DNA from: Odiellus spinosus
Taxonomy: Eukaryota > Arthropoda > Arachnida > Opiliones > Phalangiidae
Assembly (NCBI GenBank): GCA_963920705.1
Contig: OY987227.1
Location: forward strand, 28,191,935-28,255,934
Length of the DNA stretch: 64,000 nt
Reading direction: 5' to 3'
Part shown: piece after piece, positions 27,041 through 58,133 of the stretch
How positions within the stretch are numbered: position 1 is the stretch's first letter
Layout: the number at the start of each line of letters is the position of its first letter
Made by a program: the position numbers and the translations under genes
The notes under the pieces: model-generated
What the model was told of the DNA's origin: nothing
Databases searched by the model: none
What the model saw: only the letters and a program-made list of their open reading frames with translations

Positions 27041-27043
27041 TTT

Positions 27044-27690
27044 TTTCATTTGCGCCGTTTTTTATTTGCGCCGTTTTTTATTTGGGCAGTTTTTTATTTG
27101 GGCAGTTTTTTATTTGGGCAGTTTTTTATTTGGGCAGTTTTTAATTTGCGCAAGTTTTTTATTTGCGCAAGTTTTTTATTTGCGCAAGTTTTTTATTTGC
27201 GCAAGTTTTTTATTTGCGCAAGTTTTTTATTTGCGCAAGTTTTTTATTTGCGCAAGTTTTTTATTTGCGCAAGTTTTTTATTTGCGCAAGTTTTTTATTT
27301 GCGCAAGTTTTTTATTTGCGCAAGTTTTTTATTTGCGCAAGTTTTTTATTTGCGCAAGTTTTTTATTTGCGCAAGTTTTTTATTTGCGCAAGTTTTTTAT
27401 TTGCGCAAGTTTTTTATTTGCGCAAGTTTTTTATTTGCGCAAGTTTTTTATTTGCGCAAGTTTTTTATTTGCGCAAGTTTTTTATTTGCGCAAGTTTTTT
27501 ATTTGCGCAAGTTTTTTATTTGCGCAAGTTTTTTTATTTGCGCAAGTTTTTTTATTTGCGCAAGTTTTTTTATTTGCGCAAGTTTTTTTATTTGCGCAAG
27601 TTTTTTTATTTGCGCAAGTTTTTTTATTTGCGCAAGTTTTTTTATTTGCGCAAGTTTTTTCATTTGCGCATTTTTTCATTTGCGCAATTC
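27044..27690. repeat. 16/17/18-bp minisatellite with graded variants
   Basis: A tandem array whose unit is T6-A-TTTGCGCAAG. From left to right there are two units ending GCGCCG, then four 16-bp units ending GGGCAG (ends at 27089, 27105, 27121, 27137). Next come 23 units of 17 bp ending GCGCAAG (27154-27528), seven 18-bp units with one extra T (27546-27654), and two degenerate CATTTGCGCA units. Because 17 is not a multiple of three, all forward frames stay open with a 17-residue periodicity. The long open frames here are therefore artefacts of the repeat. Confidence 0.95.
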
Positions 27691-34400: not shown

Positions 34401-36767
34401 TTAAATATTTATTTATAGAACTGTTCGGGCAGTTTTTAAGCCCAATGCTCCGGCTGCTCCAGGAGGAGCTCTCTAAAATTATTGCGTTAATAGCTATCGG
34501 AGTGCTCCAGGAGCATTCGGAGGAACCCTAAGAACTAAATCGTAAAATCTGCAAAAACGTTAATTGAATCTATTTGCCTCTCCATTCCCTACGTCTTAAT
34601 ACTCCTTGGTAATCCGAAAAATGGGTGGATTAGGGAGTAGGGAGAGCTGTTAGATACACGCGACAGACTCGATTCCTTGGGTTAAAAAACCTTCTTATTA
34701 TTGTAATGTTTAGATCTATCCTATCTCATAATGGTTTTCTATCTCGAAATGTCATCGCGTGCAAAGAGGGAATTTCCCCAAAATTATTTTTATTCTACCT
34801 AATAATCGTAGATTATTATTATTATTACCAGGAGTCTATAAAAACACACTCTAAGAGTATAGAACTTATTGTAAGGTGAATTTTAAAATCGCTCTTGAGG
34901 TTAAGCAACACCTAATCCACCAGTAAAAATTTAACGATAAATTATTAAACCAGAAAATAGGCTTAGCTGAATTTTTTTCCCATTGAAGGGTCAACCTCGG
35001 GGTCAACCTTAATAAATATAAGGTGGGAGCCATTGGGTTCATCGTTATTGGTCCGATTTTATACTTAAAATTTAACTTAATCAAATTAATTAATTTAAAA
35101 ATCAATTTTCATTTTAAATAAGTTTTTTTATTTTATTTTTCGTCGTGGAAAAAAAATAGGATTAACAAAATTTTTTTAACTGAGCAGTTTTCAGTTCTTT
35201 TTATCATTACTTAAAAAATGAATTTAAGCGTATATACATTTTCAAACCGGTTAATTTTTACCTTAATTTAATTTTAAATATTAATTAAAAAAAAAATTCC
35301 AAATAAGGTCAAATTTTTAGAGATATCTCAAAGCAAACAAAATATATTCTTTGACTTAAATTTAAAAAAAAATTATCACTTTACGTAATGAGATCAACTG
35401 AAAAGATTAATATTATGAGATTATTTTTTTTATTATACCGGCTGAAGCTTGGATTTATTTTAAATAATATGACTCTAATTACGAGAGAGATGATACGATT
35501 ATTAATTACCGTACTAATTAATAAACAAAACTATGGGGTAATTATGAAATATAATAAATCAATTTTAAATTAAAAGCGATGGTTGAAATGACACGAAAAA
35601 AAAAACATGCGGAAAAAAAAAATTTTTTGGTTTTTTTTCTATTTTGAGCCATACATTTAAAGTTTTATAATATATATAAATATTTACATTAAAATAAAGA
35701 CAATAGGTTGGCAACTTCATGGAATTCATATATATATTGCTATATATATATATTAGAAATATATTTTGGTTACCAACAAATACATTAAGAAACTAAAAAG
35801 TTACACTTAGATAAAACAAAAAAAACCTTATAGACACGTCAGCCAATAAAAATCCATTTCGACGGAAATATCTCGAGTCTGAAGGCTGACGGCGAGAAAA
35901 AAATATATCTCTTCTCTCCGCGCCCGCAGACCGAACCGGTAAATATGTAAAGGAGACTTTATGTTAATTAATTTATTTTTTACACTCATTTAAAAGAGAA
36001 ATTAAAATAAGCCCTCTTTAAGTTACATTTTTTTTTTTTTGGCAAAACGATTTTTTTTTTTTATTTTTTACGAAAAAGCACAAAATATTTGAGATCAATT
36101 ATTGAAACGCTGAGTACTTTTTATTATTTATTTTCAAAATAGTTCATTTAAAAATTAAAAATGACATATAATACACTCGTCTTCGGAAAGATGATGGGGT
36201 ATGCTTGGTGTCTGTTTCAACCATATATATATAATGAGAAATATTCAAGTTTTTGGACCCTTTTTTTAAATTTCTGTATCGCTGCTTTTAAAAATTACTA
36301 ATTTCATGTTTTGGTTCGGTTTTTAGTAATAAAAATATTATGTTATATATATTATTAATAGTAGAAAAGGCCTGTCTAAGTATTTATATTTATATAAAAA
36401 AAAATCACTTTAGATATTAGAAAAAAAATAAAAAAAAATTAAGAAACCCCGTGAAGTCACGAAATTAGTCCATATTTTATACAAAATGTATATCAAAAAT
36501 AGGACGGATGTCCTATATACTATAATATTAAGTTTTTCTTCACATTTCAGTTAAAAAAAACTAATTACATCAACAAATGTAATTATTAATTAGTCATCAG
36601 TCAAATGGTTAAGGCACTGTACAAGTTATTCTTTACTTAAAGTTCAATTGTTTTTGGCATAAATAGAAAGAACTCGATGGTCTATCGCGTCACGTGGTAT
36701 ATCCACGCGTATTTTTTCTAGCCACACTCACACAAAAAAAAAAATTAAAATACCTAAAGTATTTGTT
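34401..36767. other. A+T-rich flank and probable 3' UTR region
   Basis: No coding frame is recognised. The stretch just below 36768 should hold the 3' untranslated region of the minus-strand gene. The first canonical AATAAA signals I see on the minus strand lie near 36120-36132, about 640 bases past the stop codon. Whether they are used cannot be told from sequence. T/A-rich tracts lie near 35690-35760 and 36215-36235. Confidence 0.4.
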
Positions 36768-36947
36768 TTATAGAATACGACATAGTTCCATTGGTTGTCG
36801 TTGATGTCCTGGTCGTACGCCTCTCGCGTCCGCAATTTCTCTTCTTCGAAAATGATCAACTTGGTTGAATGGTTGTAGAAAGTAACGGAAAAATGAAACC
36901 AGCAACTCCGCTACTTCAACTTCCATAGATCTTCGTTGTCGATCCCT
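36768..36947 (-). CDS. BH3-only-like gene, last coding exon (C-terminal tail)
   Basis: This exon gives residues 273-331 of the predicted protein and ends in TAA at 36768-36770. It is entered at phase 0 after a CTATAG acceptor, with a CTAAT branch-like motif about 15 bases upstream. That matches the phase-0 donor of the BH3 exon. It encodes a basic start (RDRQRRS), then a hydrophobic and aromatic stretch (VAELLVSFFRYFL, about residues 284-296), then a charged, Arg-rich tail. In BIM and BMF the BH3 motif is likewise followed by a short hydrophobic C-terminal segment that helps membrane association. The role here is inferred from that position. The exon is short enough to be missed by simple length cut-offs. 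Confidence 0.7.
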   Translation of the reverse strand, partial: RDRQRRSMEVEVAELLVSFFRYFLQPFNQVDHFRRREIADARGVRPGHQRQPMELCRIL

Positions 36948-37464
36948 CTATAGTTTTCGGATTAGCGAATATTTGATGGGAAAATGGCAGGGAAAATATA
37001 ATAAAAAACTCCGTCATATTGAGTTCTGAAGCTTCGGGTTTTTATAGAACGTAAAACAGGGGAAAAGGAGAAAGCAAAGGTTTAAAAAAAAAAAGTTTTA
37101 AAAAAATTGTTTTTTCTTGGGATTTGAAAAGAAAAATGCGAGCCTTAAGAGTACAATTTTATTTCTATCAACGTGTTAGCGTATATAGTTATGAACCGAT
37201 CAACGAGTGTAAAGCTTAAATTAAAAATTTAAATGGGAAGAGGGCCTTAATTAATTTCAAAATATAATTATCATATTTCTTATTTGGGAACCGGCAGCTC
37301 TTATAATTTTTTCTAGTTTGTAGAATTATTTCAAAGGTTTTTTGATCAAGGTCTTGACGATCTTCAATACTACAATGATAGTATAAAAATTTTAACTTTT
37401 TGAGAAGAAAATTTGGTTCTTTTAATTAAATAAAATCCTTTTTAAGGGCGTAGGTTCATTTAAT

Positions 37465-37585
37465 CGACTTCAAAATGATCGAAACCTGTTTTGTCTAATT
37501 GATCGACACCCAAAGTGATCGACAATGGCTTAGGTTAGTTTTTTAACTAGTTGGACATTTGGGAGTCGATCAAGTGGAACCAAAT
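37465..37585. repeat. Diverged family B repeat
   Basis: It contains AATGATCGAAACC, ATTGATCGACACCCAAAGTG, GGCTTAGGTTAGTTTTTTAA (the complement of the AACTAACCTAA segment) and GAGTCGATCAAGTGG. These are the same building blocks as 10512-10648, in altered order and with one CCTAA-like unit only. Confidence 0.5.
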
Positions 37586-39730
37586 CCTTTTCAAGGCCTC
37601 GCTTAAAATTCCACCTTTCAAGAAATGATTAACAACTAAATAACTTCCAATATAACGCGACTCCTTGCTTTTTTACTCCACGTTGAGACATTGACGGTAG
37701 AGATAATATTTCATCCAATTGGGTAAAAATAAGTCTAATTGAGATCATCAAATGATTGCAGCAATATTTCAAAGAACTAGAACTTTTGTTAACTTGACAG
37801 AGTTAATTACGCGCGTCTCTCATTAGTTATTTATATTTATTTACTTCAAACTAGCGCACTGACTGAATCTTTTGCAAAAGTAAATTCTACGTAACCTTTT
37901 AAAAATTGCAAAAACTACAAAACATTACTATTCCTCCTAGCCTAGAAATGGACTACAATACGGCTGGGGATTATATGTTGTATCCGATTTCTTTTAACCA
38001 TTTATTATAACCGTATTGTCAAGAGTCAGCTGACATGTGAGGAAAAAAGGGGTTTGCCTTAACTGATACCAAGACCAGGGGAGTTCTTGTTTAGTCGAAA
38101 CCTCCCAAGTTCAAGGTCGGAGGTTAACCCTAAAAATAGGCTCGCCTACTGCCACCAAACTGATAAATAATAACTGATACATTGGTTGAACTCGGGCATC
38201 ACCAAAAATCGGGGGTGGTTTTTTTTTTCTAGCATCCCTGCTACTTGATTGTTACTACCCTAGCCACCATCTCTTCCTAGTACCATCTCCAATCTTAGTT
38301 TTCAAAACGTACGAATCTACACTTCGCGGATATTTATGAGGAAAGAAAGGGTACCCTATTGCAAATTGCGTTTCATAAAATCTACTTTAGAAATCCCCTT
38401 ACCCCATGGCCCGTTTCAAAAGCGGAGCTACAAACAGGCGGCTGTAAATGTAATGTAATTTTAACCCCCCTCGCAAACCAGCCTGGAGTTACTCGTGACT
38501 TTGACTGACTCTAGTGAATTCTTTCCACGTAAACCTCCTTGGAAAACCAACTTATCTTTGAACTATGGAGAAGGCCCTATATTACGAGGGAATACAAACT
38601 CTCAGTATCTATTAAAGTTGATCTATTTTAAATAAAAGCTATATGAGAATCAATTTATCCTTTTATCGAGAGTGAAGCTATTTCTGGTTTAAAGTTAACT
38701 AGTATGGGATGATACGGTATCTAAAAAGTACGGAGCATATAGCTATGGTCTGAGACGACGTAAATAAAGTTTTTTTTCTAACTATCCCGACTAGGACTAG
38801 GAGACTAGGAGAGAGTGGCCAGGTGGCGTCTGCTCCCCGCGCAACTTACGAGTACAGGTGTTAGCAGGGGCATACCGTGGGAACGAAAAGTTCTAGTATT
38901 GGCTTCTATATATGTTTTTACTATCAAAATCTTTTAGGGGGGAAATAAAACGCTAGTAAGAACAGCTGGGCAGAGATTGTGACGTCACAAGATGCGCGTA
39001 AAAAGGGAATATACCAACACCTACGAGCCCAAGGGTTCTGAAGGACCGTAGCTTTTCAATTTTTTTTGGTTGGCCCGGGGATTTTGTTTGCGGACGAACC
39101 TATTTCTTTATGCGCGTGGTAATACGTATTACAAGCTTTAATAATCCGCTGGGAGTTCGTGTAACACGTGCGACTGCGCAAAATGTCAAAAGAGACGTTT
39201 TTGGGTATTGACAATCAGCGACAATAAAACTAGGCTCAATTTTGGTTCCCTATAAAGATAGAGAGATGTATATCTTGGTACGCGTTGAAATCTAGATCTG
39301 ATTCTGAAAAGGCTTATATTTATGTAATCAATTTTGATCGTAACGCCACTTCTTATCTGATTACGCGTATTGTGGAATCATACGTGTTAAATTTATAATC
39401 AGTTGACTAATTTTTTACCTAAAGAGTTTTACTTCTACCGTGCACTAGTTATTTAGGAATTATATTAAGTATAGAAGTTCAAAGGTTTAAGAAAAACATA
39501 ATTTAGAATTTAATATGGTTAAATTAATTTCAAAATTTTGATTGAATTTTATGTAAAATGAAAAATTAGACCAAGATATATCGTTAAGTACCGTTGAAGG
39601 CTTAGAATAATATGATTGGTCCTATTTTTGCCTTAACCTAAGCTAGAGAAAACTAAATTAAACACTTAATTTAAATGAAATCCAGATAATTTTATTTGGA
39701 ATGCCGGTTACTCTATAAAACCTATAGACC

Positions 39731-39882
39731 TTACGAAGCGACCGGTCGTGGGTGGGGTTTTAAGCTCGCGACCACGTGCCAACGTTTTAACGCTTCGCGA
39801 AGCACCTGATTGGCTTTTGAAATCTATGCCTATATCGCGTGCATGCTGTTTGACCTTTGCAAAAAGAGGTTGGCTTCGTAAA
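39731..39882. mobile_element. MITE-like segment with TTACGAAGC ends
   Basis: A GC-richer 150-bp patch in intron 2 bounded by TTACGAAGC and its complement GCTTCGTAA. Both strands are open by chance over much of it. No second copy was found in the window, so identification as a mobile element is tentative. Confidence 0.35.
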
Positions 39883-40365
39883 AATACTTTCAAGCTCTGC
39901 CATGGGCATTATTATTGGTTTAATTTTTAATTTAGAGTAAAATCAGATTATAGATAAATACAGCAAACCCTCGTTTTAGAAAACGTTCTAATTTTAGATA
40001 TAACCATTATTAAGGGAAAGTATAACAAGTTTGGTTAAATATGGCCCACAATCAACTTCTAAGAATAAAAATATAAACTAAGAAATAAAGAATTTAGAAT
40101 TATATTAAAAAAAAAAGCTTTTTTTTATTCAAATATATAAATCCAAACCGACGCGTGACATAAATATTCAACAAATTGTCGCGTAATACGTCACTGTGAC
40201 GTCACGGTCGAACATTTATTCTCAATTGGACGGTTTTTAAAATACTCTATCAGATTTATTTAAATTGTAAGGGGCGGGGCACGCCGACATCTTGCTTGTT
40301 AAGAATATAAATGTCAACAGTCAACTATAGGTGGTGCCCTTAACCTTTAGTTAGGCAGTAGCTAC

Positions 40366-40497
40366 CTGGGACGGAAATAAGCACAAGTCAGTGGAAATTG
40401 TCTCGTAAGAAAAATTCTGGTAAAAAAAAATCTAGAGCTCAGCTAATTTTTTTCAATTGCTAAGCCCAATAAGTAAATTGTCTTATTTCCGTCCCTG
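40366..40497. mobile_element. Short hAT-like MITE (family O)
   Basis: A 132-bp element with inverted ends C(T/A)GGGACGGAAATAAG. It is flanked by a perfect 8-bp target duplication, GTAGCTAC, at 40358-40365 and 40498-40505. An 8-bp duplication and CAG-type ends are the hAT hallmark. It lies in intron 2, about 280 bp beyond the BH3 exon's splice donor. Non-autonomous. Confidence 0.9.
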
Positions 40498-40774
40498 GTA
40501 GCTACAGGTCGCCTAGCTTCAACTGGAGTTGCCTGTGGCCATTTCTATTCTTATTCCAAGATGTCTTCGCGCTTTATGAATCTGTAATTTTAAAAATAGC
40601 ATTCATTTCGGCGCGAATTGATCTTGTCGTTTTAACGTTACTGTCTTTTAGCATTTTAGTTCAATCTAGCTTAACGTGTACTGTACTCTTAGGCTCGCGG
40701 GTTATACAAAACAATAGTATAATTAAGCCTAAATATGTATAAAAATGAATCATTTCCATGATAAGAATACTAAC

Positions 40775-41028
40775 CAAAAGAATATCAGCTCGGCGACTGT
40801 CCTCGAAAGCGTCGCTCAAAGATCTCAATCGGTTCCCGGCCGTTTGAAAGGGATTTTCTTCCTCTTGAGGGGTCAATGGATGGCCGTGAGGGTCAAAGAG
40901 TGGGAATGACGTCGTTGAAATGGACCTAGGCCTCGTTCTATGGACGGAAGGTGGCAAGACGTCGGGTAGAGGTCCCGCCATCCCGGCGCTCGCCCGTCTT
41001 TGTCGAACTGATGGCTCGGTACGAGCGG
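40775..41028 (-). CDS. BH3-only-like gene, exon with BH3 motif
   Basis: This exon gives the end of codon 188 and residues 189-272. The acceptor is strong (a T-rich tract ending CTAATTTTAG) and the donor reads TTTTG then GTTAGT. Entry is at phase 1, exactly as the upstream exon leaves, and exit is at phase 0. The peptide is Arg- and Pro-rich, then acidic (PQEEENPF), then NRLRSLSDAFEDSRR at residues 253-267. That fits the BH3 pattern: small or hydrophobic A251, L255, L258, small S259, invariant D260 and F262. BH3 helices of this pattern bind the groove of anti-apoptotic BCL-2 proteins. S instead of G before the Asp is tolerated in known BH3 motifs. Function is inferred. An internal ATG at 40981 is probably not the start, because the frame is open back to the acceptor. 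Confidence 0.75.
40796..40843 (-). other. Candidate BH3 motif
   Basis: Residues 250-265 of the predicted protein. The core LRSLSDAF has leucine, two residues, leucine, a small residue, aspartate, one residue, then phenylalanine, as in BH3 helices. The weakest point is the first hydrophobic position, which is alanine. Confidence 0.5.
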
Positions 41029-41289
41029 CTAAAATTAGACAACAAAAAACTTTGTTAATTAGTATTGAGTTAAAGTTGGACTTTTATAATTATTTCTCTA
41101 GTGCCCGGGTGATAGGGGCGACTTGGTCAACCCTTTATCTCAAATAGAAGGAGATTTGTGGCCTGTCAAATTCAGACCTTTTCAAGGTTGGGCGAAATGG
41201 GGGAATGGTTAGAAATTTCACTCGCATTTTTAACGAGAGCTTTATCAGGAGAATTAGGCTTAGCAGACGTATAAATTAAACGAGAGGGA

Positions 41290-41395
41290 CAGATGAGGCG
41301 TACGTAATTAACCGGTTTAATCAGATTTAATGTAGCATTCTCATTTTAATAAATCACGGATAAATCTAATTAAAACGGCTAATTACGCTTCGTTT
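41290..41395. repeat. Family K repeat
   Basis: It shares TAACCGGTTTAATCAGATTTAA-type sequence, GTAGCATTCTCA and GGCTAATTACGC with 47205-47321. Both are in intron 1. Confidence 0.5.
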
Positions 41396-41479
41396 GAAGA
41401 GGGTATACACGCGAAGTTAAATACATTTAATTTTGACTTAAGATATTTTAATGAAGTATAATTAATTTAATTAAGTCTG

Positions 41480-41935
41480 ATATAATAAATTGGTATTAAT
41501 AATTAATTTAATAATAATAATGAATATAATAAATTGGTTATAAATAATTAATTTAATAATAATAATTAATATAATAAATTGGTTATAAATAATTAATTTA
41601 ATAATAATAATTAATATAATAAATTGGTTATAAATAATTAATTTAATAATAATTAATATAATAAATTGGTTATAAATAATTAATTTAATAATAATTAATA
41701 TAATAAATTGGTATAAATAATTAATTTAACAGTAATAATTAATATAATAAATTGGTTATAAATAATTAATTTAATAATAATAATTAATATAATAAATTGA
41801 TTATAAATAATTAATTTAATAATAATTAATATAATAAATTGGTTATAAATAATTAATTTAATAATAATTAATATAATAAATTGGTATAAATAATTAATTT
41901 AATAACAACAATTAAATTAATATAATAAATCGGTT
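41480..41935. repeat. 42-45-bp A+T-only tandem array with higher-order pattern
   Basis: About ten units of the type GGTTATAAATAATTAATTTAATAA(TAA)nTTAATATAATAAATT. Units differ by one TAA triplet (45 or 42 bp) and by GGTTA or GGTA at the start. The variants recur in the order long, short, short, GGTA twice over, so blocks of four units seem to have been duplicated. It is in intron 1 and has almost no G or C. Confidence 0.85.
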
Positions 41936-42827
41936 TAATTAAAGCAGTTATTACTTAAATTCATTGGAAAATTTCCTATTAATATGTTAATATTATTCGT
42001 ATAAAAATCCTTTTCAATCTCCCTTTAATTTCTTTGAATCAAAGCGTGGTTGGTTCTCCGTGATAGAGAAAAGTGCTTTTATATAGGAAAGACTCTTCAT
42101 TTCAATAATGCAAAGGGTGCATTTCGAACTTATCTCGGCCCTACATATCGTGATGGGTCTATTATATTATAAATTTTGAAGTGCTGGGAAAATTATGGTA
42201 CCGTAGACGGGGTTATAGAATTTTTATTTTTCTTAATTAATTTATAGCGAAGTTTATAGGGTTGACGCGCCCGGAGAAATACTATAATACAGAGAAATTA
42301 GAGGAGGGAATTCGAGATTGACATCCATTTTTGACAGGTTGAATCGGATAATTGGTATTTGATATCAAAACCTATTTTTATTTTTGGACATTTAAATTTG
42401 GTGGGGGCTAGATTTCTAAAAGTGTCGAGAATTTTTAAATTTTGAAGACGTCCCGCGTGACTCATACTCTAAGGATATTCCAAAATTATTTATATTTAAG
42501 ATTTTTGCAAACGCTATTTCTTATCCTATGAGATTTAATATCGCGAATCAATCCGCCTCAGTTTTCCCCGTTTTGCAAACTCCGCTTGAATATCAGTAAG
42601 GTCTGATTCTTGAACCTGACAAACACGCAAATTTGGAAATATGTCTAAATAAATTTTGCAAAACAATGGCATTAAGGTAACTAGTTTTAAAATTAAAATA
42701 TAATTAGCAAAATCGAGTTTGAAAAATGCAATGTATTTGGTTAATTGTTGCAAAATAATATACGCACTTTTTACGAGTAAAACAGTGCAATATTATTTAA
42801 AATTTTAATTTTCTATTAAATTAAATA

Positions 42828-43125
42828 AAAAAGTTGCAAATTCATGACGAAAAATTCAGTTTTTAATAAAAAGCTGCAAATTTCATGACGAAAAATTCAG
42901 TTTTTAATAAAAGCTGCAAAATTCATGACGAAAAATTCAGTTTTTAATAAAAAGCTGCAAAATTCATGACGAAAAAATCAGTTTTTAATAAAAAGCTGCA
43001 AAATTCATGACGAAAAAATCAGTTTTTAATAAAAAGCTGCAAAATTCATGACGAAAAAATCAGTTTTTAATAAAAAGCTGCAAAATTCATGGCGAAACAT
43101 GCAGTATTGAATAAAAAGCTGCAAA
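42828..43125. repeat. 41-bp tandem array
   Basis: About seven to eight units of AAAAAGCTGCAAAATTCATG followed by ACGAAAAATTCAGTTTTTAAT. Middle units are identical, and the outer ones diverge (GTTGCAAATT on the left; GGCGAAACATG and CGCCGAAAATT on the right). This is the expected edge decay of a tandem array. It is in intron 1. Confidence 0.9.
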
Positions 43126-43308
43126 ATTCACGCCGAAAATTTTATTTTGAATTAAAAAAAAGTCATCCTTAGAGAAAATCAAAATAATTCTTTGTACGAC
43201 CAGTATATATTTAATTTTAATTTAAGGGCATAATTAAAATGCATTAAATATTTTACGTTACAATATGATGCCAACAACCAAACGATAATTTTAGTACGAA
43301 AGGTAGTT

Positions 43309-43433
43309 GACTTTCTGGATTAAGTACTTTCACGAAAAAAACGGCGCGAAAGCTAACTTTATCACTCGCGCAAAAACGCGCGAGAAGCGGCTGTAGGCTC
43401 TACAATAGTCACGTGCCCATAGTGATGACGTAG
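43309..43433 (+). repeat. Family J dispersed repeat, copy 2
   Basis: It begins GACTTTCTGGATTAAGTACT and ends CACGTGCCCATAGTGATGACGTA. It matches 61182-61303 along its length and 4585-4676 in reverse. Fragments lie at 44698-44726, 49868-49915 and 60009-60055. Confidence 0.65.
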
Positions 43434-46400
43434 TATGGCTAGGAAAAATTAGAAAATGGCGATTATACGGTCGCTGTAATTTTGTTCTATGACATATGTA
43501 TATATATTTTGAATCGTTTTTTAACGATCTTTACGAAAATATGACTCAATTTCCATTTGGAGTTCGTGAAAAATACTTAACAGGCTCGCTTTTAAATTGC
43601 AATATAAACCATCAAGAAAACAAGACGCGAGTTTAAAAATAATCCGCTAAAAAACGGTAAAAAAAAATAATCCCGGAAAAACTAGTGATGCAATTCTCGA
43701 GAGGGAGAGAGAGTTGACATCACCGGTATATTTCGAGCGAATTTTTTCTTTTTAACTTTATTAATGAGGTTGGTATATATTATACCTCCTCGAAGAGGAG
43801 GATAGAAAATGTATGGATCGCGGAACACCCGCTGAGAAAAAAGGCTAGCGTTATTAAAAGATTTCAAGACAGGCGATTTTTATGGCGCTAAATAATAATA
43901 ATTAATTATATGGTGTATTTTGCTAATATACAATGAATAACGCGTTCCAAGCAAATTTACCCAAAAGAAATTATGTCGTGTGTTTCTGGTGAGTTGCACC
44001 ATGATCGGAAATAGCCTAACTCCTTACAGAACTCTAATTATAGTGGGGATTAGTGCGCGGGTCAAGCTAAGGTCAAAGATTTCTTAGTCATAACACGATA
44101 TTTGTAAATTTTAAAACTTTAAGGTTAGGGAGTTTCGTTAAAATACATTTTAAAGATTTTCACTGGAAGTGGGCTCACCTTCTGGAGGGAAAGCCTATAG
44201 GGTGAGTTTGTTTTCAGGGTAACAAGCGGAAGAAATTGATCTTAAAATAAATTATGACTTCGTCCCAACCTTGAAACAAAAGGCAACATATTCCGTAGAA
44301 ACGGGTTCTATTTAACGGCTATTTTTGTTACTTTCAAGGTTGGAAAAAGTATGGAAAATTCTATACTTTGTAGCAATCTTGAAAAAAGGCAACATCTTCG
44401 ATACAAACCGATGCTTTTTAACGGCTCTTTTATCCGTTTCAAAGGTTATTTTATAAGAAGGCTTTTAAAACAGTTATTTTGAGATTTTCAGCATGATTTC
44501 GTGATTTCAAAATATGTAAATTGTGAGATTTTAAATGATTTGGAAGATATTTTTGGAATGTGTATTGGATTTTGTCAAGTGTTTGAGCCCTAATTTTCAT
44601 TACACAAAGGTCATGCGCAATTTTGTATACTTTGAACTAGGACACGCGTGAGAAAAACCTAAATTTTAATAAATTTTAAAATAAAAATTTTCCGCAATTC
44701 TACGTCATCACTATGGTCACGTGGCTATTAATATCTTTGATTTTAATTAAATCATATATTACTAAAGTGTTCATCTTACAGAAGGACCTCTAAAAAGTTT
44801 CATAAACTAAATATTATATTACTATGGTTATGGCAATAAAATTAATAGCGCATTTATATCTATCTACAATTTAATTAGGCTGCAAATTTGAAATATAATA
44901 CACTTTAAAAGCGTAACCTTTCAGCACCCCATTTCTTAATAAAAGCTTTACTGTAACCTCGCCATTATTTCAAGCAAAATTTCTTTTTTCAACAAGAAAC
45001 TGGGGGACCAAACACTGGCCCAAAAAAAAATCTTTTAGGCTAATAACAGTGGAAAGATGTCTCGAGGTTAAAGTTCGAAAAGGGCCCCTGAATACTATGA
45101 CAGATAAAAATCTTTTAGGAAAAAAAAAAAAAAATGATAAAAAGTGGCTCGTGTCTGAACGCTTTTTTAAAAAAGGCGTTTTTTTTATCAAAAGTTTTCA
45201 AGTTAAAAGATTAAAAGGGGAGCGAGCATTAAGTTGTAAAAATCACCCCCTGCATACTCCCGATAGAGCGTGCTAGTGCTCTATGAAATATAGAAATCCC
45301 CGGGCCACTAAGTTAAAAAAAAATAATAAAAAAAATGATAAGGGATCGTGACGTAACTGCGCACGCGCGACTAGTTTTTTTCTTCTTCCTTTTAACTATC
45401 TTTACAACTCTGCCTCTCTCTCTTGATCGCTTTTTTCTAAACTTTTTTTTAAAGAGATGGTTTCACGCGTTTTAGATAAACATTTTTTAAAGTGCCAGTG
45501 ACATTTATTTTAACAATGAATATTAAAACTAATCTAATATGATTGAAAAGTAACCTATGCCGTTTTTAAACTATTACTTATAATATTAATAAATTAACGA
45601 GATAGATTATTAACTTTTGTTTTTATGTCACCCGAGATCTCACCTCTCCATTCCCGCGTTTTTTTGTAACGTGGGTTTTACAACCTTTTTACCAAAACTT
45701 CATTTACATTCGCGGGATTAATAATTTGCGTGACGCAAAAAATTCCAAATTATTGAATAATGTTTATCAACCGCAATGATATAATAGGTTAATATAATGA
45801 ACTTTTTGACTCATTTAACTTGTTTATTTAGCTGATTCGTCACTGTTTAATAACGCAGAGTGACGTAGACTATGACGTCTTTGAAACAAGTGTAGTTTAT
45901 ATTATTAATTCTGATAATTAACACGAATTCATAATGAAATCTCAAAATAATATTTGGTTAATTAATGAAGTATATTAAGTTTTAAATACTATAAAATAGT
46001 CATAAAGATGAGTGATATCACTTTTTGGCGCAATTTCATTCCAAAACAAAATGTGTTATAGACATTCGAGTCAAGTCTGGAGTAAAAAAAAAATTCCAAT
46101 AAGCATTGAGATCAGCTGTTTATGTTTGACGAAATATGTCACCTACACTTTGATATTATTTAGAACCGAAACAAATCTTTAAATATTACGAAACTATCTC
46201 TTTAAAAATTGGCAACTCGCGTGGCAGTCCCGGGCAAAAAGATCCCAGTCCGGTTTTCTTTACATCTCATTATCCCGGTAGGGGGAGACGAGAAGTGTGT
46301 TCGGAGGAGGATAGTTTAAGAAAAATAGTAATAAAATATAAAAAAAAAAAAACTCCTTTTCACTACGTGATAGGTCCCGGGCAAAAATCTAAGCTTCTTA

Positions 46401-46821
46401 TTGGTTAAGAAAACGGGTAAAGTCCATTTAAAGATTTATTTCGAGGGGAGTGGGGATTAATTTTTTTTTTTGTACTCTCTTGGAGAAACCGTGATCTCGG
46501 AAGTTGTAGGATCGGGAGAACGCACGTGTTGGAGATTTTCGAAGGGGAATGACGACGTTGTTTACGTTTTTTTTAGGTTGGGAAGCTTGTTTACTGTCAA
46601 GGCAACCGCGCGCCCTCTCGCCAAGGGGTCACTATTCCTAGGGTATAGTGGGGGAAATGTCCGAATTGGAAAGAGGCCACTGCTGGCTACGTGGATATAA
46701 ATCTCGGTTTTTTTTTCTTCGAGTTGATTGTTTACGTCAAGAAAACACGGTTTAGATGGATGGTGCCAAATACACAAACACACTTGGCGAGATATTTGGA
46801 ACATTTATTTTAGAGGGGAAT

Positions 46822-46853
<32 letters not shown>

Positions 46854-47204
46854 GTTATGGGAATCACGTACGTATACGCGGTTTAGAGAGATACTTATCT
46901 ATATTTTAAATTAACTAATAGTTATCTAAAAGAACTTTATTCTGGTGATAGAGGCTTCATTTATATGTTATCAGTATATTTGGCATTAACCTTACGAGTC
47001 ATTCACTATATGGAATTTGTATCATCCAACTTTGACATAGTTATCATTTTTATATAGTTCATTTAATTGGGTTATGACTCACGCAGTTTCGTTCGTAGAA
47101 ATTGAAAAACTACTTCTTTTCGCGGATTTTGATATCAAAATCATATTTTTACATAATAATTACAATAAATCTTTAGTTTAGTAGCTTTATACTCTTATCA
47201 GACG

Positions 47205-47321
47205 AGGCGTAATTAGCCGGTTTAATCAGATTTAACCGTGGTTTAATCACGATTAATCGAGGTTTATAGAGCTGAGAATGCTACGTAAACATCAGTTAAA
47301 TCTGCTAATTACGCGGGTTTT
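47205..47321. repeat. Family K repeat with inverted ends
   Basis: It starts GGCGTAATTAGCCGGTTTAA and ends TCTGCTAATTACGCGGGTTT, giving inverted TAATTAGC/GCTAATTA-type ends. In between lie AATCAGATTTAAC and GAGAATGCTACG. It sits 60 bp inside intron 1 from the exon donor. Confidence 0.55.
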
Positions 47322-47381
47322 CTGAGATAAATGATTCGTACACCTCCCAAAAACCAAAATAAAATGAAATTTTCGACTTAC

Positions 47382-48012
47382 CGAAAGACACGGTCGGTGA
47401 TCGTAATTGAGTCGATTCTGTTTGAGTGCCAATCGTTCTTCTTTCGACGCAATAAGCCGGAGGAGCTGAACCTCCCCGTTCGCGAGTTAAATAAGCGGAT
47501 TGATAGCCGCTGGCCATAAAGTTCATTGTTGGCGACAAATAAGGCGAAAAGGGGCGGATGAATGACGGTTGGCTTCGACTAATTGGTATGGAACTGCTAA
47601 CGGAGCGCAATCCACTAGGAAGAGATTCGTCCGACGTATTTCTGGGCATTTCGACGTCTTCGTCGCTGGCCGCGTCCAACTCGTTCAACGAGGCTGGTGG
47701 CGTATTGTAATTGGGCATGACGAAGTTAAAGTCTTCGAACGAAAAACTTCTGGTACTAGTATTGCTAGAAGGCGAAGCTTCGTATCCGGAATCTTCTTCC
47801 GGTTGGACGAAGGACCCGTTACGACTGGGTCCTCTGGATCTTCTCCGACGACCTCTGGGATGTCCCGATCGTCTATAAGCTGTCGATGTCGTATTAGGTA
47901 GCGGGAATTCTAAGTTATTAAGTTCGTCGCTTAATTCCTCCATGGAGTAATGAGCGCCGCCACACTTTTGTTCGCTATGTCTAGTTGGAATTCCAAAAAC
48001 GATTGCCGAATC
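47382..48012 (-). CDS. BH3-only-like gene, first recognised coding exon
   Basis: An open frame bounded exactly by an acceptor (TTTTTAATAG, whose TAG is in frame) at 48012 and a strong donor (TTTCG then GTAAGT) at 47381. The likely start is the ATG at 47943, giving MEELSDELNNLEF. The 23 codons before it are also open, so translation could begin in an upstream exon. Residues 1-187 come from here. They comprise an acidic start, an Arg-rich cluster (GRRRRSRG, 31-38), a long Ser/Pro/Asn-rich disordered stretch, a PPAY motif (161-164) of the WW-domain-binding type, and TIGTQTE (170-176). The last has the TQT core of dynein light chain LC8 ligands. BIM and BMF also carry a TQT motif upstream of BH3. 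The exon leaves at phase 1, matching the next exon. The family is not proven, so no symbol is given. Confidence 0.85.
47416..47436 (-). other. Candidate LC8 (dynein light chain) binding motif
   Basis: Residues 170-176, TIGTQTE. The TQT core is the classic LC8-binding anchor, used by BIM and BMF for tethering to the cytoskeleton. It lies in a disordered Ser-rich context, as such motifs do. Confidence 0.5.
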
Positions 48013-53841: not shown

Positions 53842-54340
53842 ATTGGGCTCTGAACGTCGACGTAAGGGAACGTCGACGCTCATTTTTTCCATGTAAACGG
53901 ACGAACGTCGACGTTCGAGGAGATACGTCGACTTAACGAAAACTACCTCGAACCGTCGATTTAAGGACTTACGTCGACGTTCGAGGTAGCATGTAACCCG
54001 TGAAAGTCGTTGTTCGCTGCTTAGCAGAATTTTTCTTACTTTATAAATGCTACTATTTTTTTGATATTGCACTTTATTTTCTAAACTACTTTATTCTCAA
54101 GCGAAATAACGATTTTTTTAACATATTTAAATTATTGAACAAAGTAGCCAGCTACTGAAAAATTCGTTAATAGCAGAGGTTTGATTTTCAAAATTTAAAA
54201 TAAATTAACTGATATTATTTAAGATAAGCGTATATAATTTAGTACATACAATTAATATTATACTATATAATAAATACTATATTATATTAATATTATTAAA
54301 TAAAAATCAGAGGCAACTAGTTATACCGAAATAATATACC

Positions 54341-54673
54341 CGATTTAATTTTAAAGATCCCGATTTAATTTTAAAGATCCCGATTTAATTTTAAAGATCC
54401 CGATTTAATTTTAAAGATCCCGATTTAATTTTAAAGATCCCGATTTAATTTTAAAGATCCCGATTTAATTTTAAAGATCCCGATTTAATTTTAAAGATCC
54501 CGATTTAATTTTAAAGATCCCGATTTAATTTTAAAGATCCCGATTTAATTTTAAAGATCCCGATTTAATTTTAAAGATCCCGTTTTAATTTTAAAGATCC
54601 CGATTTAATTTTAAAGATCCCGATTTAATTTTAAAGATCCCGATTTAATTTTAAAGATCCCGATTTAATTTTA
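54341..54673. repeat. 20-bp tandem array, 16 full units
   Basis: The unit CGATTTAATTTTAAAGATCC is repeated 16 times without length change (54341-54660), then a partial 13-base unit. Only one substitution was seen, in the unit starting 54581 (CGTTTTAATT). The near-identity implies very recent expansion or homogenisation. Confidence 0.97.
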
Positions 54674-57225: not shown

Positions 57226-58133
57226 TTCGGAAAGGCGATCAATTGGGCAAAACTATTGGTTGATCATTTGAAAGTCAATCAATTGGGCAAAACTTTTGGT
57301 TGATCATTTGAAAGTAGATCAATTGGGCAAAACTATTGGTTGATCATTTGAAAGTAGATCAATTGGACAAAACTTTTGGTTGATCATTTGAAAGTATATC
57401 AATTGGGCAAAACTATTGGTTGATCATTTGAAAGTAGATCAATTGGACAAAACTATTGGTTGATCATTTGAAAGACGATTAATTGGGCAAAACTATTGGT
57501 TGATCATTTGAAAGTCGATCAATTGGGCAAAACTATTGGTTGATCATTTGAAAGTCAATCAATTGGGCAAAACTATTGGTTGATCATTAGAAAGTCGATC
57601 AATTGGGCAAATTATTGGTTGATCATTTGAAAGTAGATCAATTGGGCAAAAATCCCTGGTTGATCATTTGAAAGTAGATCAATTGGGCAAAAATTCCTGG
57701 TTGATCATTTGAAAGTCAATCAATTGGGCAAATTATTGGTTGATCATTAGAAAGTCGATCAATTGGGCAAAACTATTGGTTGATCATTAGAAAGTCGATC
57801 AATTGGGCAAAACTATTGGTTGATCATTTGAAAGTAGATCAATTGGGCAAAACTATTGGTTGATCATTTGAAAGTAGATCAATTGGGCAAATTATTGGTT
57901 GATCATTTGAAAGTCGATCAATTGGGCCAAACTATTGGTTGATCATTTGAAAGTCGATCAATTGGACAAAAATCCCTGGTTGATAATTTAAAAGTCAATT
58001 AATTGGGCAAAGCTATTGATTGATCATTTGAAAGTAGATCAATTGGGCACAACTATTGGTTGATCATTTGAAAGTCGATCAATTGGGTCAATCCCTTGTT
58101 AATCATTTGAAAGTCGATCAATTGGGAAAAAGT
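57226..58133. repeat. 40-bp tandem array, about 22 units, in a family B context
   Basis: The unit is ATTGGTTGATCATTTGAAAG followed by TAGATCAATTGGGCAAAACT. Most units are exactly 40 bp and a few 39. Variants include TCGATCA, TCAATCA and CCCTGG. Each unit holds an inverted TTGATC/GATCAA pair. The sequence just before (57162-57225) begins GATTTGGGTCCGAGTGATCG, like the start of family B, and the unit resembles that family's tail (AGTCGATCAATTGGG). Open frames crossing it are artefacts. Confidence 0.93.

Follow-up and report, generated by a model that had tools for sequence, protein, structure and literature searches.

A candidate BIM/BMF-like BH3-only gene in the arachnid Odiellus spinosus

Does a split gene in a 64,000-nucleotide stretch of the Odiellus spinosus genome (Opiliones; assembly GCA_963920705.1, contig OY987227.1, positions 28,191,935 to 28,255,934; hereafter the window) encode a BH3-only cell-death regulator of the BIM/BMF type, as proposed in an earlier note on this DNA? 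Three exons on the minus strand are spliced at GT-AG introns into a single frame of 331 codons, the intron phases being 1 and 0. The product contains an LC8-type motif GTQTE at residues 172-176 (TQT from 173) and a BH3-like segment LRSLSDAF at 255-262; residues 284-296 form a hydrophobic stretch. The best single explanation is that the gene codes for a working BIM/BMF-like BH3-only protein, apparently disordered over most of its length. Judged from the sequence, this reading is an even bet, as the close runner-up in a scan for BH3 segments and the ranks of the exons in a codon model count against it. The rival readings considered below overlap in part, and the probabilities attached to them do not sum to one.

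Re-splicing bore out the coordinates, joined frame, phases and motif positions given in the earlier note (Table 1), whose junction numbers 47381/41029 and 40774/36948 are the outermost bases of the two introns. Its description of the splice sites as clean holds for the GT-AG dinucleotides throughout and for donor 1, which is strong, whereas donor 2 and both acceptors rank lower. These ranks come from a rough position weight matrix made from the splice-site consensus, each site being compared with the same-strand GTs or AGs of the window. Donor 1 (TTCG/GTAAGT) is within the top 0.4% of GTs and donor 2 only within the top 8.5%; acceptors 1 and 2 are within the top 15% and the top 30% of AGs, respectively. 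The GC content of exons 1, 2 and 3 is 49, 56 and 43%, compared to 35% across the window. None of the exons has a second copy in the window (BLAST, E 1e-3), whereas introns 1 and 2 both match other places in it.

Table 1. Features of the candidate gene (positions in the window)
Feature	Positions	Strand	Description
Exon 1	47943-47382	minus	562 nt; ATG at 47943, within CCATGG; N-terminal part rich in S, P and R; LC8-type RTIGTQTE
Intron 1	47381-41029	minus	GT-AG, phase 1, 6,353 bases; tandem and interspersed repeats inside
Exon 2	41028-40775	minus	254 nt; residues 188-272; BH3-like AGNRLRSLSDAFEDSR at 251-266
Intron 2	40774-36948	minus	GT-AG, phase 0, 3,827 bases; weaker sites (donor GTTAGT, acceptor CTATAG/AGG)
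Exon 3 (least certain)	36947-36768	minus	180 nt; VAELLVSFFRYFL at 284-296, then 35 residues to TAA
Alternative C terminus, intron 2 retained	40774-40661	minus	VSILIMEMIHFYTYLGLIILLFCITREPKSTVHVKLD, then stop; strongly hydrophobic, AT-rich, non-coding-like codon score

LC8 is known from almost all eukaryotes. The candidate motif ends, with its TQT, 12 residues ahead of the last full codon of exon 1. Its core GTQTE is identical to positions -2 to +2 of VSRGTQTE, the LC8 optimum selected by phage display (PMC3078936).

Candidate BH3 segments were sought with a position-specific scoring matrix (PSSM) made from 11 vertebrate BH3s and applied to the 25,210 positions in window open reading frames (ORFs) of at least 40 amino acids. 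The segment AGNRLRSLSDAFEDSR has the top score, 11.93. The known BH3s, each left out in turn, score 6.8-25.5 (n=11), and the candidate falls inside this range; its score is equalled in 0.8% of 5,000 shuffles of the candidate protein. The BH3 motif has the form h1-small-x-x-L-x-x-h3-small-D-acid-h4, which is fitted by G252, L255, L258, S259, D260 and F262. The ordered combination of TQT[DE] and a strict BH3 core arises in 7 of 200,000 shuffles of the protein, although figures of this kind overstate the case, as the motifs were selected after the sequence had been seen.

In an AlphaFold2 model of exon 2 alone, made from the single sequence, helices are predicted at residues 195-201, 241-245 and 247-270 (mean predicted local distance difference test, pLDDT, 71.8; predicted template modelling score 0.35). 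The blocks of the last helix, which contains the BH3-like segment, have pLDDT values of 83, 86, 85 and 62, and the non-helical block just before it has 81. The helix over 247-270 is weak evidence, since it was predicted from one sequence. The charge-hydropathy value of the protein is marginal for disorder (0.411 compared to the boundary of 0.415).

The exon layout also resembles that of BIM (BCL2L11). In the human gene the dynein motif is encoded in E2C, which together with E2A and E2B makes up the first coding exon and stands at its end; E4 carries the BH3, and the coding sequence ends in E5 (PMC4695108), to which the figure legends of the same paper seem to assign the tail. Each BH3 of BH3-only proteins is described as sitting on a single exon (PMC2871139). 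In the candidate the LC8 motif and the BH3 likewise occupy successive coding exons, here exons 1 and 2, and the tail would follow on exon 3 if that exon is correctly modelled. In the comparisons of alignment, hydrophobic moment, tail and composition, here and below, BIM and BMF are the human proteins. The amino acid composition of the candidate is near that of BIM, and the tails are similar in hydropathy, with 11-residue maxima of 1.80 in exon 3 and 1.85 in BIM. BMF shares with the candidate the order of motifs, a non-acidic residue following the BH3 Asp (Gln in BMF, Ala in the candidate) and an extension past the hydrophobic stretch.

A PF00452 profile search of the 443 Mb assembly (286 contigs, the window being in contig C3) found six BCL-2 family loci, L001-L006. 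L006 is BAX-like (best PDB match BAX, 3.4e-10), L005 is pro-survival-like (best PDB match a BCL-2/BCL-xL chimera, 1.2e-14), and L003 is BOK-like (best PDB match BOK, 4.9e-20); L001, L002 and L004 resemble L003 by eye. Thus BAX-like, pro-survival-like and BOK-like proteins are encoded in the genome, and potential partners exist. The BH1 arginine, which pairs with the BH3 Asp (PMC2871139), is seen by eye in five of the six loci: L001-L004 (WGR) and L006 (VER). In three BOK-like proteins the best PSSM positions, presumed to be their BH3s, score 10.7, 13.6 and 22.5; the best position in L005 scores just 2.7.

Two further observations concern the BOK-like loci themselves. The presumed BH3s of L001, L003 and L004 are without the usual Asp (QLKLLCQQL, ELERIGPEL, HLRRLGTEL), which the candidate retains. 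L001, L002 and L004 are located within about 60 kb of contig C1 (19.99-20.06 Mb), likely a local duplication.

If the gene is expressed, the residues around GTQTE could dock the protein on the LC8 dynein light chain, so that it would be held on motor complexes until stress frees it. An amphipathic helix around LRSLSDAF may then enter the groove of the BCL-2 family proteins (L005, L006 and the BOK-like L001-L004), and binding there would free or activate the killer proteins and lead to cell killing. The hydrophobic C-terminal stretch could help the protein to reach the mitochondrial membrane.

A number of observations, however, weigh against a BIM/BMF-like protein, and some of them concern coding potential as such. 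A small codon model (681 codons, trained on BCL-2 family exons from this assembly) gives slightly positive scores to all three exons. Among the window's 185 ORFs of at least 60 amino acids, the frames of exons 1 and 2 are outside its top 10, and antisense frames across these two exons are placed 2nd and 9th. Therefore the codon model gives no strong coding evidence. The length of the exon 1 frame by itself is just mildly unusual, because stop-to-stop frames of at least 235 codons, as in exon 1, turned up in one out of 60 first-order resamplings of the 64 kb, and in three out of 60 when 16 kb with the local composition of exon 1 was resampled. One possibility is that there is no gene here and the frames are open by chance, as these lengths and the unremarkable scores of exons 1 and 2 in the codon model would allow. 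Such a coincidence seems very improbable, however, given that the exons exceed their flanks in GC content and lack repeat copies in the window, that donor 1 is near ideal, and that the phases fit over three exons. The gene model looks reasonable for exons 1 and 2 and is weakly supported for exon 3.

Other unfavourable observations concern the motifs. Positions -3 and -4 of the LC8-type motif are Ile and Thr, off the natural consensus, and -3 is not the Lys or Arg of (K/R)xTQT. Two BH3 positions are weak, with Ala at h1 and Ala at the acidic site following the Asp, and the hydrophobic moment is 0.47, compared to 0.63 in BIM and 0.76 in BMF. Second place in the PSSM scan, with 11.74, goes to a nonsense frame at position 35890 of the window, so the first place of the candidate is no more than the chance yield of a 64 kb scan. 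On the partner side, the pro-survival-like L005 has WSH in place of WGR.

Homology searches were unfavourable as well. Neither the joined protein nor any of four pieces of it matched a Pfam family at E<=10, PF08945 (BIM) and PF15185 (BMF) included; in a control, the C-terminal part of human BIM matched PF08945 at 1.5e-20. No further BCL-2 homology region or fold was detected in the candidate by Pfam at the same threshold. The BH3 peptide has no match in PDB at E<=10. Alignments to BIM and BMF score at the level of shuffled sequences, and the only z near 2 (1.9) pairs unrelated regions. The sole PDB match of the joined protein at E<=10 is the chain LR_gamma6 (0.24), which is unrelated and was rejected. 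No relative of exon 1 was found in one scan against viral contigs.

The main rival explanation takes the product for an unrelated disordered protein, possibly a genuine LC8 client, whose LRSLSDAF resembles a BH3 by chance. The silence of Pfam, PDB and the BIM/BMF alignments speaks for it. The motifs were chosen after the fact, the PSSM level of the segment is reached in some shuffles and almost matched by the nonsense frame, and a minimal L-x3-[GAS]-D pattern alone occurs in 23% of shuffles of the candidate protein. Moreover, LC8 has dozens of partners, with 242 motifs in 219 human proteins satisfying the predictor of PMC3078936, and therefore the TQT motif alone is no pointer to apoptosis. 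A chance look-alike accounts less easily for the rarity of the strict ordered combination, the BIM-like exon layout and the position of the segment in a predicted helix. We regard this rival as a serious possibility, though short of an even chance.

Even if a BIM/BMF-like function is accepted, descent from a common ancestor with BIM and BMF does not follow. The candidate is longer than BIM (331 compared to 198 amino acids) and has no significant sequence similarity to it; its LC8 flank is TIGTQTE, whereas that of BIM is DKSTQTP; its h1 is weaker, there is no acid following the Asp, and 35 residues extend beyond the hydrophobic stretch. Similarity to BMF is limited to the motifs, PF15185 giving no match. 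Since homology at the sequence level was tested and not found, the candidate is not filed here as a BIM/BMF orthologue. It looks built to work like BIM and BMF, but orthology is unproven, and a true BIM/BMF orthologue in a non-insect arthropod is doubtful. The motif order given in the earlier note stands, and the GTQTE core, the exon layout and the presence of BCL-2 family partners make the candidate in some ways more like BIM than described there; the Pfam and alignment results, the weak BH3 positions and the uncertain exon 3 leave its membership in BIM/BMF unproven.

EGL-1 of C. elegans is not known to have an LC8 motif. It is an ecdysozoan BH3-only protein, as the candidate would be (PMC8998228, PMC7022251). 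The other ecdysozoan parallel is sayonara (CG14044) of Drosophila, an arthropod BH3-only candidate as well. It differs in belonging to the coiled-coil family PTHR21974, with a BH3 thought to originate in Diptera, and an LC8/BH3/tail layout goes unmentioned in the available part of its description (PMC10107002). The sayonara authors infer that this BH3 was born within another family (PMC10107002). By analogy, the candidate could be a BH3-only protein by function whose BH3 evolved by convergence within an unrelated protein, which would be one form of the best explanation and not a case of BIM/BMF orthology. The lack of a homology signal to BIM and BMF is consistent with this. On the other hand, convergence would need to produce an LC8 motif, a BH3 and a hydrophobic tail in the BIM order on separate exons, and it appears unlikely.

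The C terminus is the least certain part of the candidate BH3-only protein. In the next 9.7 kb there are 70 in-phase acceptors opening at least 30 codons, many of them in common frames, and in 14 of these, exon 3 included, the tail hydropathy is at least 1.8. Exon 3 ranks 34th of the 70 by similarity to the BIM tail and 5th by codon score. Thus neither hydropathy nor likeness to the BIM tail sets it apart from the alternatives, which again speaks against the proposed architecture. The C terminus may be mis-modelled: intron 2 may be retained, giving a stop after 40661 and a transmembrane-like tail, or another exon may follow. The weakness of donor 2 and acceptor 2 points in this direction, as does the higher hydropathy of the retained-intron tail (2.99). 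However, the codon score of that tail is clearly negative (-11.3 bits) and that of exon 3 positive (+1.9 bits), which favours the spliced C terminus, and the GC content of exon 3 by codon position is 65/38/25%. A wrong C terminus, which is compatible with the other readings, is somewhat unlikely. A hydrophobic stretch follows the BH3 in both the spliced and the intron-retained model.

BH3-only proteins are on record for C. elegans, whereas for insects none is reported (PMC8998228); the single Drosophila example is regarded by its authors as convergent (PMC10107002). In a tick, Bcl-2 and Bax proteins interact via BH3 (PMC8336254). In the open-licence literature searched, no paper contains both "BH3-only" and "chelicerat", and an arthropod BIM or BMF is named in no title or abstract opening among the matches listed. 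If an arthropod with BAX-like and BCL-2-like genes has a BIM/BMF-type protein as well, this would be the trigger so far missing from a three-part switch, the age of which could be tested. If it were a true orthologue, LC8-tethered BH3-only signalling would be older than the protostome/deuterostome split, and lineages beyond the fly and nematode models would have kept it together with BAX-like and BCL-2-like proteins.

Several features of the genome were noted in passing. Six contig ends were examined. The far end of contig C1 consists purely of TTAGG (388 copies over 1,944 bases), the common telomere repeat of arthropods and a sign that the host is one. The start of C1 (L007), unlike that end, has TCAGG runs mixed with TTAGG; three other contig starts have no telomere array, and one reads N. 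The mitochondrial genome is contig C286 (16,074 bases); its protein genes follow the arthropod order. Insects and crustaceans usually have trnL(UUR) between cox1 and cox2. In C286 only 3 bases separate the cox1 and cox2 frames, and trnL(UUR) is beside nad1, which it also adjoins in a ricinuleid mitochondrial genome (PMC2231378). This position suggests a chelicerate or myriapod and probably not an insect or crustacean. The placement of other tRNAs is unusual: trnL(CUN), trnI and trnQ share a strand and are flanked by the presumed rrnL and by a gap of about 870 bases that follows trnL(UUR) (L033-L034).

In the window, the observed/expected ratio of CpG is 1.38. Ten other ORFs or ORF parts (from the 116 ORFs with 70 amino acids or more) were compared with Pfam and gave two weak matches, both under the curated cut-off; Rfam gave no match at the gathering threshold. 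An interspersed repeat with five minus-strand copies (1778, 12000, 18059, 31037, 56345) reads as a common peptide ERISLAASEFVQKTSSF..ENFQF with variants. A 17-base tandem array at 27042-27687 (37.9 copies) has no stop over 191, 248 and 286 codons in three frames, and the long ORFs of this region are thus a repeat artefact. Minisatellites are located at 57230-58131 (40-base unit, 22.6 copies) and 54339-54673 (20-base unit, 16.8 copies).

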